Source: an uncultured Aquimarina sp. (lineage in GTDB: Bacteria > Bacteroidota > Bacteroidia > Flavobacteriales > Flavobacteriaceae). Taken from it: DNA of 64,000 nucleotides. Within the stretch, counting starts at the first letter, position 1; each line of letters opens with the position of its first letter. The notes under the pieces were generated by a model. It saw only the letters and a program-made list of their open reading frames with translations. It was not told the origin of the DNA and did no database searches. Made by a program: the position numbers and the translations under genes. Location: positions 62,001 through 126,000 of the forward strand of contig CANMKX010000003.1 of assembly GCA_947498595.1 (NCBI GenBank), given 5' to 3'. This document shows positions 44,284 to 49,027 of the stretch, piece after piece.

Positions 44284-44916
44284 ATGATTACTGTATTAAT
44301 TGCTGACCATCATCCGATTACTAGAAAAGGTATTACATCTCTTCTAAGGAATGCCGAAGAATTTGATATCATCGGTAAAGTAAGTAATGGGAATCAAATG
44401 TATGATGCGCTTAACGATAGAGTTCCTGATATTCTAATCATGGAACTAGACCTCCCACAAATTAATGGGATTATGGCTCTTCGTACTATTAAAAAAGAAT
44501 ATGCGGGTATTAAAGTCATTATTTTCAGTTCTCATCCTGAAGAAATGTATGCTTTAAGCGCTATAAAAGCTGGAGCATCTGCTTATTTATCAAAAACTGT
44601 AGAAACAAAAATACTAAGACGAGCAATTGATCGTGTTGCTAGAGGAGGTATTTATTTAAATGAAGAACTGTCTGAACAATTAGCTAACGGTAGTACTAAA
44701 GAAAGTAATATGGTTCTCAAATACAAAAAACTTTCTTCTAGAGAAATAGAAGTATTGAATCTTTTATCTGCGGGTAAGCGTAATAAAGATATAGCAACTA
44801 CTCTATCTATCAACGAAAAAACAGTTAGTACTTATAAAACTCGTTTACTTAAAAAATTAAAAGTTGACAATCTTGCTGATTTAATTCACCAATCTAGATT
44901 ATTACATCTTAGCTAA
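44284..44916 (+). CDS. LuxR/NarL-type response regulator with altered receiver
   Basis: A 210-residue regulator with an N-terminal receiver and a C-terminal LuxR HTH (about 148-205, LSSREIEVLNLLSAGKRNKDIATTLSINEKTVSTYKTRLLKKL). The receiver keeps Asp8, the Ser of IIFSS and Lys104, but the phospho-acceptor position in PDILIMELDLP is Glu54, and the acidic partner next to Asp8 is His9. Glu there mimics phosphorylated Asp, so the protein may be always active. No kinase is adjacent on the same strand; a NarL-type kinase lies 2.1 kb further on beyond dnaG. Confidence 0.88.
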   Translation: MITVLIADHHPITRKGITSLLRNAEEFDIIGKVSNGNQMYDALNDRVPDILIMELDLPQINGIMALRTIKKEYAGIKVIIFSSHPEEMYALSAIKAGASAYLSKTVETKILRRAIDRVARGGIYLNEELSEQLANGSTKESNMVLKYKKLSSREIEVLNLLSAGKRNKDIATTLSINEKTVSTYKTRLLKKLKVDNLADLIHQSRLLHLS

Positions 44917-44917
44917 A

Positions 44918-46987
44918 TTATATAACTCTATTTAACTTATTAGAAAGCACTCTTTTTAAAGAAATATAATCCATTATATCTTGCAAAATTTCCTGATGTG
45001 TGGCTAGACTTTCTTCTTTCGTAGTACTCGAAAGCTCGTTAATCTTTTGGTCTATCAGGAATCTTCTTAGATTTAATATCGTGTCGTTTGTAATCCTAGC
45101 TACGGTTGCTTTCTTTTGTTTTACATGAATTTCATTACGCTCCCAGTCATGCAATGCATATCGCTCTTCATTCATTAATATTGCCGTAATTTCTGATGCC
45201 ATATCTCCAGACACATAATTAATAAATGTATCTACCTTAAAATTTTCATCTTGCATCAATTTTTCTATCAAGATATAATATATATCTCTAAAACTTTGAT
45301 TTGCAAATTCAATCTCATCATCTTGTAGATCTAAATATATTTTCTCAAAAACTTTAGCTGTATGAATTTCTGGTTCTAGCAACAATTCTCCATCTTCACT
45401 TTCTTTTAATATTAAATCTTCAAACTCTTCTTCTATTTGGCCATATAAAAGTAATATTTCTATTATTTTTCTTTCAAGTTCGTATTGTCTATCTACTTTA
45501 GGACTTGCTTTGGTTTTGGGAGTTGATTTTCCTGAACCTCCAGACATTGCATCCATCTCCATCATGTCCATATAAGCCTCCATAGGTGGCTCATTTGGAT
45601 CCTGAGATTGAACTGGTGGTTTATTGTTTTTTTGAACTGTAAAAGGCTTCTGCTGCTTCTTGTTTCTCTTTTTCTCTTCTTGCGCGTTTTTATTGCGAAT
45701 TTGAGCTAATGTATCAAAAATCACTTCTTCAGACATGTCCATGATTCTTGAACATTCTCTCACGTAAATTTCTCTTTTGATAACATCAGGTATCTTAGAT
45801 ATACTTGTTACCATATCGCGCACAAGCTCTGCTTTTTTTATAGGATCATCCTTAGATTGCTCTTTTAGGATTGAAGCTTTAAAACGAATAAAATCCTGTG
45901 CGTTTTCCTCCAGGTATTCTTTTAATTCTTCTAAAGTATTCTGTTTTGCAAAACTATCTGGATCTTCTCCATCAGGGAAAGTACAAACTTTAACATTCAT
46001 CCCTTGTTCTAAGATCAAATCAATTCCTCTAATAGAAGCTCTCATCCCTGCAGCATCACCATCAAAGAGTACTGTTATATTTTTTGTTAATCTATTAACC
46101 AATCGTATTTGATCAGATGTTAGGGCAGTTCCTGAAGACGCCACAACATTGGTTACTCCAGTTTGATTAAATTGAATTACATCTGTATATCCTTCAACCA
46201 AGAAACAATTATCTTCTTTTGCAATCGACTGCTTAGCTTGATAAATTCCATATAAAATTTTACTCTTATGGTAAATATCACTCTCTGGTGAATTTAAATA
46301 TTTAGCAGCTTTTTTCTCATTAGTTAAAATTCTTCCTCCAAAACCTAGAACTCTTCCAGACATCGATTGAATAGGAAACATTACTCTTCCTTTAAAACGA
46401 TCAAATTGTTTTTCCCCTTTAACAATTGTCAGTCCTGTTTTATCTAAATACTCTAATTTATATCCTTGTCGTATAGCATCACTTGTAAATGCGTCCCAGG
46501 CATTGGGAGAATACCCTAGTTCGAATTTTTTTATGGTTTCGTCTGTAAATCCTCTTTCTTTAAAATAAGTAAGTCCTATTGATTTTCCTTCTTCTGTTTT
46601 GGTTAAAGACTTATGAAAAAACGTATTTGCATATTCACTTACCAAATACATACTTTCACGCTCATTGGCCTGCTCTTTTTGCTCGTCTGTTTGTTCTGTT
46701 TCTTCAATTTCAATATTATATTTCTTAGCTAAATATTTTATAGCTTCTGGGTAAGTAAAATGTTCATGCTCCATTAAAAAAGCGACAACATTTCCTCCTT
46801 TTCCACTAGAGAAATCTTTCCAAATCTGCTTTACTGGAGAGACCATAAATGATGGTGTACGCTCTTCACTAAAAGGACTCAATCCTTTATAGTTACTTCC
46901 TGCTTTTTTTAATTGCACAAAATCACCTACTACTTCTTCTAATCTAGAAATATCAAATACGGCGTCTATAGTATTCTTTGAAATCAA
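44918..46987 (-). CDS. dnaG: DNA primase DnaG without zinc ligands
   Basis: A 689-residue primase that makes RNA primers at the replication fork. The TOPRIM domain is intact: FLVEGYTDVI, SSGTALT and LFDGDAAGMRAS supply the metal-binding Glu and Asp residues. The C-terminal helicase-binding domain is preceded by a Lys/Gln/Pro-rich linker. In the N-terminal zinc-ribbon the four ligand positions of CPFH...HCFGC read Ser37, Ser40, Asp58 and Ser61, so zinc cannot be bound normally. The start is a TTG (46985-46987); an in-frame stop lies 15 bp upstream and no ATG is available. Confidence 0.95.
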   Translation of the reverse strand: MISKNTIDAVFDISRLEEVVGDFVQLKKAGSNYKGLSPFSEERTPSFMVSPVKQIWKDFSSGKGGNVVAFLMEHEHFTYPEAIKYLAKKYNIEIEETEQTDEQKEQANERESMYLVSEYANTFFHKSLTKTEEGKSIGLTYFKERGFTDETIKKFELGYSPNAWDAFTSDAIRQGYKLEYLDKTGLTIVKGEKQFDRFKGRVMFPIQSMSGRVLGFGGRILTNEKKAAKYLNSPESDIYHKSKILYGIYQAKQSIAKEDNCFLVEGYTDVIQFNQTGVTNVVASSGTALTSDQIRLVNRLTKNITVLFDGDAAGMRASIRGIDLILEQGMNVKVCTFPDGEDPDSFAKQNTLEELKEYLEENAQDFIRFKASILKEQSKDDPIKKAELVRDMVTSISKIPDVIKREIYVRECSRIMDMSEEVIFDTLAQIRNKNAQEEKKRNKKQQKPFTVQKNNKPPVQSQDPNEPPMEAYMDMMEMDAMSGGSGKSTPKTKASPKVDRQYELERKIIEILLLYGQIEEEFEDLILKESEDGELLLEPEIHTAKVFEKIYLDLQDDEIEFANQSFRDIYYILIEKLMQDENFKVDTFINYVSGDMASEITAILMNEERYALHDWERNEIHVKQKKATVARITNDTILNLRRFLIDQKINELSSTTKEESLATHQEILQDIMDYISLKRVLSNKLNRVI

Positions 46988-47077: not shown

Positions 47078-49027
47078 TTGAAAGGCTTCTATTACATCAA
47101 ATTCTCCTTTTTACATATTTGTATTCTTTACTCATTATTATGTTCTCACTTTAATTTAATGAGTCAATCAAAAAATAATTCTTCTAAAAAAGAAAAAACA
47201 TTTCAGGTAAAAGGATTTGGCGCAATTCACGATCGCGCTAAAAACTCTTTGTATATAAAATTAAACTCTATTACCAATTCTATTGAAAGAATTCCTATTC
47301 TGGATTCTATCTCAGAATATCATATCAAAGGTGGAAATACCGATTCTATCTTACATTATAGTACTATTTTTCATAATGAAGTATTAAAGTTAGCAGATTC
47401 TACTACTCAACAAGCTAGTTTACTGTTACGTGCTTATGAAATTATTTCTATTGGTAAACGAAGTAAAGGTTTACTCGATACTGCTATCAAATGGAACTTA
47501 GAAGGTATTCAATTAGCTGAAGAATTTGACAATCTGAAGTTTTTATATATTCATAAACTAGATTTAGGTATTGTTTATCTAAAAAAGAAAGATTTTGAGA
47601 AAGCTAATTCTTTATTTCAAGAATGCTTGAATGCCCCTAATGTTTCACTAGTAGTTCAATATTCTGCTTACAAATATTTAGGTGATATTGATTTATTTAA
47701 TGATCGAATCGATGAGGCTAAAACAAAGTATACAAAAGCATTAGATCTTTGTAAACAAGCTAATGACATCAAACAAGAACTTATTGTTAAAATTGGGTTG
47801 GGGACGATTGCTAAAATCAATAAAAATTATGATAAAGCTCTTGACTATTTTGAAGAAGTAAAAGATACTGCACTAGATCATAATTATTATGATTTAAATA
47901 TTGATTCACAGATTAGAATAGGAGACATTTATCTAGAATTAAACCATATTCAATCTGCAGAATTAATTTTTTCTACAGCTTATACTAATGCTAATTTTTT
48001 TGATAGTTTATATTATCAAGAAATAGTTTTATATAAATTAAAAGACGTCTATACCTTAAAAAAAGATTATAAAAATGCATATGCGATCATGTCGCAGATT
48101 AACAGAATAACGCATTTATTAACAAAAAATCAAAATCAAAAAGAAATACGAAATCTTGAAGTTAAGTATGAAACATTACAAAAAGAAAACGAAATTAAAT
48201 TTCTTAAAAAAGATAAGGAATTAAAAAATATAGAACTTAAGCGAGAAAAATCTATACAGATGATTATGGTTATTGCATTTTTAATCATGCTTGTCCCCAT
48301 AATTATATTGTTATACGTATACTATCAAAAATTACAAACTCAACATCAATTAAATACTACTTTAAAAAAAGTAAGTTCTCAAGAAATTTCTTCTTTGCTT
48401 AAAAAGCAGGAGTTAAAAATAATGAATGCCATTTTGGATGCTCAAAACCAAGAACGAAAACGTATTGCTCAACGATTACATGATAGCATTGGAGGTGATT
48501 TAGCTGGAATAAAGCTCTCTTTATCAACTTATATTGAGAAAGATATAAAACTAGCCTCTATCTCTAGTCGTATTAATGAAACATATCAACAAATACGTAA
48601 TATATCTCATAATCTAATTCCTAAAAAATTTCAAAACTACGCTTTTACAACCCTTATAGAAGAATATGTGATTCAACTAGAAGAATCTAGTGATTTATCA
48701 ATTACTTTTAGTCCATTTCCTGAATATGATCTTAATCATTGCCCAGAAGATATTCAAATTGAAATTTATACTATTTTACAAGAATTAATTACAAATATTA
48801 TAAAACACGCTAAAGCATCTACTATAGAAATTCATTTAAATCTCATTAATGATACCATACAATTATTAGTAGAAGATAATGGTATTGGTTTTGATGGTTC
48901 TAAAATTTCTAAAGGTATAGGTCATCAAAACATTGATGAACGAGCAAAGGCTCTTAAAGGAAATTTTACTATTGATTCTGTAATCAATAGAGGAACTACT
49001 ATCACTATTGAAGTTCCTATTTTATAA
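47078..49027 (+). CDS. TPR-containing NarL-type sensor histidine kinase
   Basis: A 649-residue membrane kinase: signal-like N-terminus, TPR repeats (about 100-370), a coiled coil, one transmembrane segment (about 394-416), a HisKA_3 dimerisation domain with ERKRIAQRLHDSIGGDLAG (His468) and a HATPase with NIIKHAKAS, EDNGIGFD and KGIGHQNIDERA. HisKA_3 kinases partner with LuxR-type regulators, and one is encoded 2.1 kb upstream. The start is a TTG (47078), chosen because the following hydrophobic segment makes a plausible signal peptide; an ATG inside (MSQSK) would lose it. Confidence 0.87.
   Translation: MKGFYYIKFSFLHICILYSLLCSHFNLMSQSKNNSSKKEKTFQVKGFGAIHDRAKNSLYIKLNSITNSIERIPILDSISEYHIKGGNTDSILHYSTIFHNEVLKLADSTTQQASLLLRAYEIISIGKRSKGLLDTAIKWNLEGIQLAEEFDNLKFLYIHKLDLGIVYLKKKDFEKANSLFQECLNAPNVSLVVQYSAYKYLGDIDLFNDRIDEAKTKYTKALDLCKQANDIKQELIVKIGLGTIAKINKNYDKALDYFEEVKDTALDHNYYDLNIDSQIRIGDIYLELNHIQSAELIFSTAYTNANFFDSLYYQEIVLYKLKDVYTLKKDYKNAYAIMSQINRITHLLTKNQNQKEIRNLEVKYETLQKENEIKFLKKDKELKNIELKREKSIQMIMVIAFLIMLVPIIILLYVYYQKLQTQHQLNTTLKKVSSQEISSLLKKQELKIMNAILDAQNQERKRIAQRLHDSIGGDLAGIKLSLSTYIEKDIKLASISSRINETYQQIRNISHNLIPKKFQNYAFTTLIEEYVIQLEESSDLSITFSPFPEYDLNHCPEDIQIEIYTILQELITNIIKHAKASTIEIHLNLINDTIQLLVEDNGIGFDGSKISKGIGHQNIDERAKALKGNFTIDSVINRGTTITIEVPIL

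Follow-up and report, generated by a model that had tools for sequence, protein, structure and literature searches.

The window that we analysed (the whole 64,000-nucleotide stretch of DNA, from an uncultured Aquimarina sp.) carries on its minus strand the gene for a DNA primase, dnaG (44918–46987), whose product of 689 residues appears to start at a TTG codon (46985–46987), the alignment column at which its relatives also begin. The whole-model match to TIGR01391 (DnaG primase) covers residues 1–413 and, at 437.3 bits, clears the family cut-off of 283.6. Four domains, all encoded on the minus strand, could be placed: the N-terminal ribbon domain (residues 1–97; 46697–46987), which PF01807 (CHC2 zinc finger) matches at residues 3–97 with 94.8 bits (cut-off 24.9) and whose model aligns to 1d0q; DNAG_N, the N-terminal part of the catalytic core (residues 124–252; 46232–46618; PF08275, 131.8 bits); the TOPRIM domain (residues 262–346; 45950–46204; PF13155, 71.5 bits); and a C-terminal helicase-binding-like domain (residues 496–679; 44951–45502), recognised as a predicted fold by VIA-align of the model to 2r6a_C (136 residues aligned, Z 11.0, rmsd 3.4). 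The TOPRIM site is intact, as the original prediction held: the catalytic motifs EGY.D and DGD.AG read VEGYTDV and DGDAAG, and E265, G266, D269, D309 and D311 are invariant among 42 rows. On the opposite strand, dnaG is flanked by genes for a LuxR-type response regulator (44284–44916, plus) and a TPR histidine kinase (47078–49027, plus), which together resemble a two-component pair split by dnaG; a gldB gene also lies near dnaG, which suggests that the window's family (f1) is Flavobacteriaceae.

Although PF01807 recognises the ribbon domain well, none of its Cys-His-Cys-Cys (CHCC) ligands is present. The codons place Ser37 (46877–46879) at the first Cys position, Ser40 (46868–46870) at the His position, Asp58 (46814–46816) at the third and Ser61 (46805–46807) at the fourth, with a further serine at the non-ligand position 60 (46808–46810), all on the minus strand. 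Ser37, Ser40, Asp58 and Ser61 share columns with the four ligands of 2au3 in a phmmer alignment, and the same four columns were recovered in a MAFFT alignment with CHCC relatives, so that both the replacement of all four ligands and the retention of the family spacing, which had been proposed from the translation, are confirmed. Nor have the ligands moved to neighbouring positions, since residues 1–104 contain no Cys and His only at 74 and 76. A profile search found no PF01807 protein in the genome other than DnaG, so there is no second copy to provide a zinc domain, and supply of one in trans is ruled out. By its profile score, its catalytic motifs and its predicted fold the window protein is thus a DnaG, and, taken literally, it has no CHC2 zinc finger. 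Our best reading is that the gene encodes the cell's normal replicative primase with a zinc-free ribbon domain and, as we infer, with priming kept.

Structure prediction, suggested earlier for residues 30–70, was run on the full protein and on residues 1–109, and in both cases gave a ribbon fold that matches the solved zinc-binding domain 1d0q. For the full protein, AF2 with 42 rows of both ligand states gave ribbon block means of pLDDT 80–90, and VIA-align placed the model on 1d0q with Z 17.0 and rmsd 1.4 over 98 residues; on 2au3 it gave Z 34.2 and rmsd 9.7, presumably because two domains are turned differently. For residues 1–109 with 35 ligand-free rows only, pLDDT was 91–94 over residues 11–80 and the first match was again 1d0q (rmsd 1.1, E 1.5e-10), which removes the worry that CHCC rows had drawn the ribbon fold. 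The ribbon fold is therefore predicted to be retained when the ligands are gone; since AF2 has learned this family and models no zinc, the models speak for compatibility with the fold rather than for its stability.

The replacement in the window is not due to chance. One genome per genus was surveyed across the window's family (149 genomes) with a DNA pattern for the second knuckle, residues 57–65 (Lys-[Asp, Cys, Gly or Tyr]-Phe-Ser-[Ser/Thr]-Gly-Lys-Gly-Gly or a close variant; positions 37 and 40 fall outside it), and the replaced knuckle was found in 142 of them; the remaining seven have no PF01807 match at E 0.001, that is, no detectable domain. Every listed genome of this family with the motif has Asp at the second pattern residue in at least one copy, and the window and the seven further genomes of the family in which positions 37 and 40 were also read are all ligand-free. 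One genome of the family has a second motif match (G329:C2:6634-6659) with Cys instead of Asp, perhaps from a prophage or mobile primase.

Sampling more broadly, we found ligand-free DnaG in 41 of the 56 genomes read from the order (60 were searched, of which three had no match and one had a sole match not recognised as DnaG) and in 29 of the 146 read from the class (149 searched, three with no match), the remainder being CHCC in both samples. At least one ligand-free member occurs in 14 of 63 families of the class sample, and both states occur within one family in six of the 90 families read (f11, f27, f30, f45, f53 and f55). Contamination is an unlikely cause of these mixed families, because ribbon and family-typical core lie in one reading frame. 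Twenty stretches, chosen from a phylum sample of 118 genomes for low scores and spread, comprised nine ligand-free domains (in f1, which is the window's family, and in f81, f83, f94 and f98) and 11 CHCC domains, one of them a second partial copy. Finally, the best 80 loci from named genomes in a scan with a ligand-free domain were divided into 28 ligand-free and 52 CHCC; the 28 are labelled Chlorobiota in 11 cases and Bacteroidota in 17, and among these best 80 the Chlorobiota-labelled loci have ligand-free DnaG in 11 of 12. The original prediction had attributed a zinc-free fold to this lineage; the fold holds as a prediction, but confinement to the lineage does not, for the state also extends across Bacteroidota, Chlorobi and phages.

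Some individual loci in these samples deserve mention. Two second PF01807 proteins, which we take to be of mobile-element type (L090 and L091, in genomes G018 and G017), also lack the ligands (SPFR...WYDHG.G.GG) and have Asp at the third ligand position. The metagenome bin titled Chryseobacterium gleum (L235) has an STCT ribbon that is one residue off that of Flavobacteriales UBA6051 (L236) in the stretch shown, and is perhaps misnamed. In L064 (G045, f11) the ligand-free DnaG lies in an open frame of just 457 residues, implying that the helicase-binding part is missing or in another frame.

The ligand-free phage primases follow the rule of replacement described below. Of 177 matching phage records we read four: Flavobacterium phages laban6-1 and 1H and Cellulophaga phage Ingeline_1 have ligand-free primases, and one Porphyromonas phage has a CHCC primase. 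These three ligand-free phage genera, with Flavobacterium and Cellulophaga hosts, are all Duneviridae, and because they form one family within four records of 177, they provide no independent test of host-phage matching. Of 245 confirmed viral loci we read the best 80, which gave 39 ligand-free, 40 CHCC and one CPCC domain, a split that represents no frequency, given that the scan was queried with patterns from ligand-free domains. The rule S-x-[CD]-[ST] holds in all 39 ligand-free domains of these best 80. The CPCC ribbon, on a viral contig (L266), is the one case in these 80 viral domains where a single ligand has changed.

In the bacterial domains read, loss of the ligands is all-or-none. 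The 153 bacterial domains that we read comprise 79 with CHCC, 47 with no ligand and 27 with exactly one, with none retaining two or three, and a further 63 domains from the class sample are all CHCC. Where a single ligand is retained (27 of 74 ligand-free bacterial rows), it is Cys58 in 21 cases and His40 in six. The 71 ligand-free rows of our trees also follow a simple rule: position 37 is Ser in all 71; position 40 is free (S, T, V, H, N, K, A or G); position 58 is Asp in 50 and Cys in 21; and position 61 is Ser in 51 and Thr in 20. Position 60, which is not a ligand, obeys the rule as well, with Ser in 69 and Ala in two of these rows; Ser or Ala occurs in only four of the 75 CHCC rows, 71 of which have Gly. 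On the core tree, 7.9 of 8 independent pairs show Gly60Ser together with loss of the ligands (median p 0.008). Three constrained positions around the pocket combined with a free fourth would fit closely packed polar side chains better than a metal site.

We considered whether the site might still bind metal through Ser, Asp or Cys and water, and regard this as very unlikely. Positions 37, 58 and 61 do remain polar, Cys58 is kept in 21 of 71 rows, and the single original ligand in 27 of the 74 ligand-free bacterial rows makes a weak or alternative metal site conceivable; yet 15 of 71 rows have Val, Ala, Gly or Lys at position 40, which leaves at most three weak ligands there, and Ser is a poor zinc ligand. 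The suggestion that the ribbon domain is a decaying relic with no function is harder still to credit. It would fit a window protein that has none of the four ligands, but not the conservation of the domain: among 34 ligand-free domains, 16 columns are invariant and 14 more are at least 90% conserved, scaffold residues included; the second-knuckle motif occurs in 142 of 142 genomes of the window's family with a detectable domain; and the ligand-free ribbon is kept in phages too.

The two states also differ in composition at positions 29, 34, 48, 54, 56 and 69, so that other parts of the domain have changed along with the ligands. Since the ribbon domain is held, in a review (PMC6163395), to read the template, these differences could mean that the ligand change shifted the template trinucleotide at which primers start and that the switch was selected for this reason. 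We think this rather improbable, as in the independent-pair test only column 69 reaches a median p of about 0.03, whereas columns 34, 48 and 56 give 0.0625, column 29 gives 0.125 and column 54 about 0.6.

Another explanation, which we consider somewhat more plausible than altered start-site choice but still unlikely, is zinc economy: cells in which zinc ribbons had already been replaced elsewhere would have dropped the zinc of DnaG to spare metal. The zinc proteins that we examined were LigA and RecR in the window genome and the ribosomal proteins L31 and L36, the zinc forms of which hold four ligands, in 18 genomes. L31 has 0–2 Cys in all 17 of the 18 genomes where it was found, and L36 has one Cys in all 15 of the 18 loci that could be read, whatever the state of DnaG; the few Cys in L31 and L36 of these Bacteroidia genomes agree with the lower zinc demand that had been proposed, but these proteins look zinc-free regardless of DnaG and, as far as read, do not track its state in the six mixed families. 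(In the 15 L36 proteins read, among L345–L362, the lone Cys occupies position 14 and is a partial remnant comparable to the Cys58 of one class of DnaG.) The window genome retains Cys clusters in LigA and RecR, which rules out genome-wide zinc loss, and DnaG is present in few copies per cell, so that little zinc would be saved. The published survey of ribosomal proteins points both ways: in its Table 2, Bacteroidetes have the zinc-free form of seven out of eight ribosomal zinc proteins, in favour of zinc economy, but Chlorobi have zinc forms of L31, L36 and L32 (PMC3087516), and yet 11 of the 12 Chlorobiota-labelled loci among our best 80 have a ligand-free DnaG. Given this reverse mix and the independence of L31 and L36 from DnaG state, zinc economy alone fails to explain the pattern; a zinc-poor setting may have made ligand loss tolerable without driving it.

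An alignment across Bacteroidota had been proposed as a way to date the loss. Such an alignment shows the loss widely, and on the catalytic core it recurs, with 6–10 forced switches. The core trees were built with the ribbon left out. A quick tree of 132 rows (65 ligand-free, 67 CHCC) required 19 switches, 10 of them forced by supported branches, and a second of 146 rows (71 ligand-free, 75 CHCC), for which rows from the rest of the phylum were added and some short or divergent rows were dropped, required 21, of which eight were forced; both quick trees have long branches, and the program warns that such trees deserve less confidence. A careful tree of 40 chosen rows required 13 switches, at least six of them forced. 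When the 19 ligand-free rows among these 40 were held as one clade, the log-likelihood was 383 lower (AU p 7.8e-51). A single ancient loss passed on by descent is thus rejected on the core of these 40 rows, whereas the ribbon alone is compatible with it: the ribbon-only tree, with ligand columns and column 60 masked, has nine switches, two of them forced, and over its 95 columns (91 rows) one ligand-free clade was not rejected (AU p 0.28). Because the ribbon tree is compatible with a single origin, repeated change at the same sites and exchange of the module can be separated only family by family. Our best reading of these trees is that the ligand-free state arose or was exchanged several times in Bacteroidota, Chlorobi and their phages.

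Comparisons within the mixed families suggest two routes. With ligand columns and column 60 masked, pairs in the same state with core identity of 0.7–0.8 have a ribbon identity of 0.82 (sd 0.04, n = 32); pairs in unlike states are generally lower, for example 0.69 at core identity 0.65–0.7. The values for f11 and f45 do not depart from what is usual, which is what change in place would give, and in the ribbon tree as in the core tree the ligand-free L064 (f11) clusters with its CHCC mate L011. In f55, the ligand-free L113 and its CHCC mate L136 have a core identity of 0.78 and a ribbon identity of 0.58, and the L113 ribbon is 0.75 identical to a ligand-free f7 domain and 0.69 to a CHCC f52 domain. 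Along the protein, L113 and L136 are 0.50–0.65 identical over residues 21–80, where the CHCC mates L136 and L131 reach 0.85, and 0.85–1.00 identical over residues 201–340; residues 161–200 are variable in both comparisons. Ribbon identity is also low in f30 (0.53–0.54, where same-state pairs reach 0.71–0.73) and in f53 (0.57–0.62). Against a swap, AU tests did not reject in-family ribbon clades for f55 (p 0.64) or f30 (p 0.75), and the trees in which these were held even score higher. We think that both routes occurred: partly change in place, as in f11 and f45, and perhaps partly exchange of the N-terminal module, as in f55, f30 and possibly f53.

A zinc-free form of a universal enzyme domain is therefore real, widespread and recurrent, a conclusion that rests on the ligand loss itself, its spread, its all-or-none form, the replacement rule and the non-monophyly of the ligand-free rows on the core. 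The explanation that we favour, with a probability of roughly 70%, is that the ribbon is zinc-free, its ligands having been exchanged together, that it is held by a Ser-Asp(Cys)-Ser cluster, that priming is retained, and that this state arose or was exchanged several times. In mechanistic terms, the four ligands would have been exchanged together for Ser37, a free residue at 40, Asp (or Cys) at 58 and Ser (or Thr) at 61, with Gly60 becoming Ser; the side chains of 37, 58, 60 and 61 most likely form a hydrogen-bonded cluster in the space left by the zinc, which would pin the two knuckles; and the four-stranded sheet could still offer its DNA-contacting face, so that priming would continue. The cluster, the absence of metal and the retained priming are what we infer from the rule and the predicted fold. 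A broader proposal, which we put forward tentatively and rate at somewhat less than even odds, is that zinc and zinc-free ribbons are interchangeable modules that bacteria and phages have switched many times, either by concerted change at the four sites and Gly60 or by a swap of about the first 100 residues; zinc would then be one of two ways to pin the ribbon and have no part in template reading.

Large bacterial groups and phages that lack the ligands, together with six families that have both forms, constitute a natural test of zinc function in primase. Pairs found in nature that share a core identity of about 0.6–0.8 and have opposite ligand states permit a domain-swap test in which the candidate roles of zinc (holding the fold, choosing the start site and sensing redox state) can be separated. 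The ligand-free state also bears on any inhibitor aimed at the zinc site of primase. The three Cys and one His of primase are described as highly conserved in the review (PMC6163395), and in the open-licence papers searched we found neither a report of zinc-ligand loss in DnaG nor a measurement of metal, stability or priming for such a form.

Several known systems offer parallels. In glutamyl-tRNA synthetase, a putative zinc-binding domain keeps its fold with no zinc, as predicted here, according to a published report (PMC4381286), but this is another enzyme and another fold; a comparable experiment on primase was not found in the open-licence literature. The C-minus ribosomal proteins, S4 among them, are like DnaG in being universal core proteins that have a zinc and a zinc-free form, with a patchy distribution over the tree (PMC3087516); the window case differs in that it concerns a primase and that the genome has no second PF01807 copy, and the Chlorobi differ in that they pair zinc ribosomal proteins with ligand-free DnaG. 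Compared with 1d0q and 2au3, DnaG structures with a zinc-binding domain, the window DnaG has in common the domain order, the predicted ribbon fold, the TOPRIM motifs and the helicase-binding-like C-terminus, and differs in its four replaced ligands and in Ser60, where 71 of 75 CHCC relatives have Gly. The animal Twinkle helicase, two structures of which (7t8b and 7t8c) are among the structural matches of our models, has a degenerate primase half that is related to bacterial primases and has no zinc ligands. In Twinkle, priming has been lost; the window DnaG, in contrast, has intact TOPRIM motifs and is the sole PF01807 protein of its genome.
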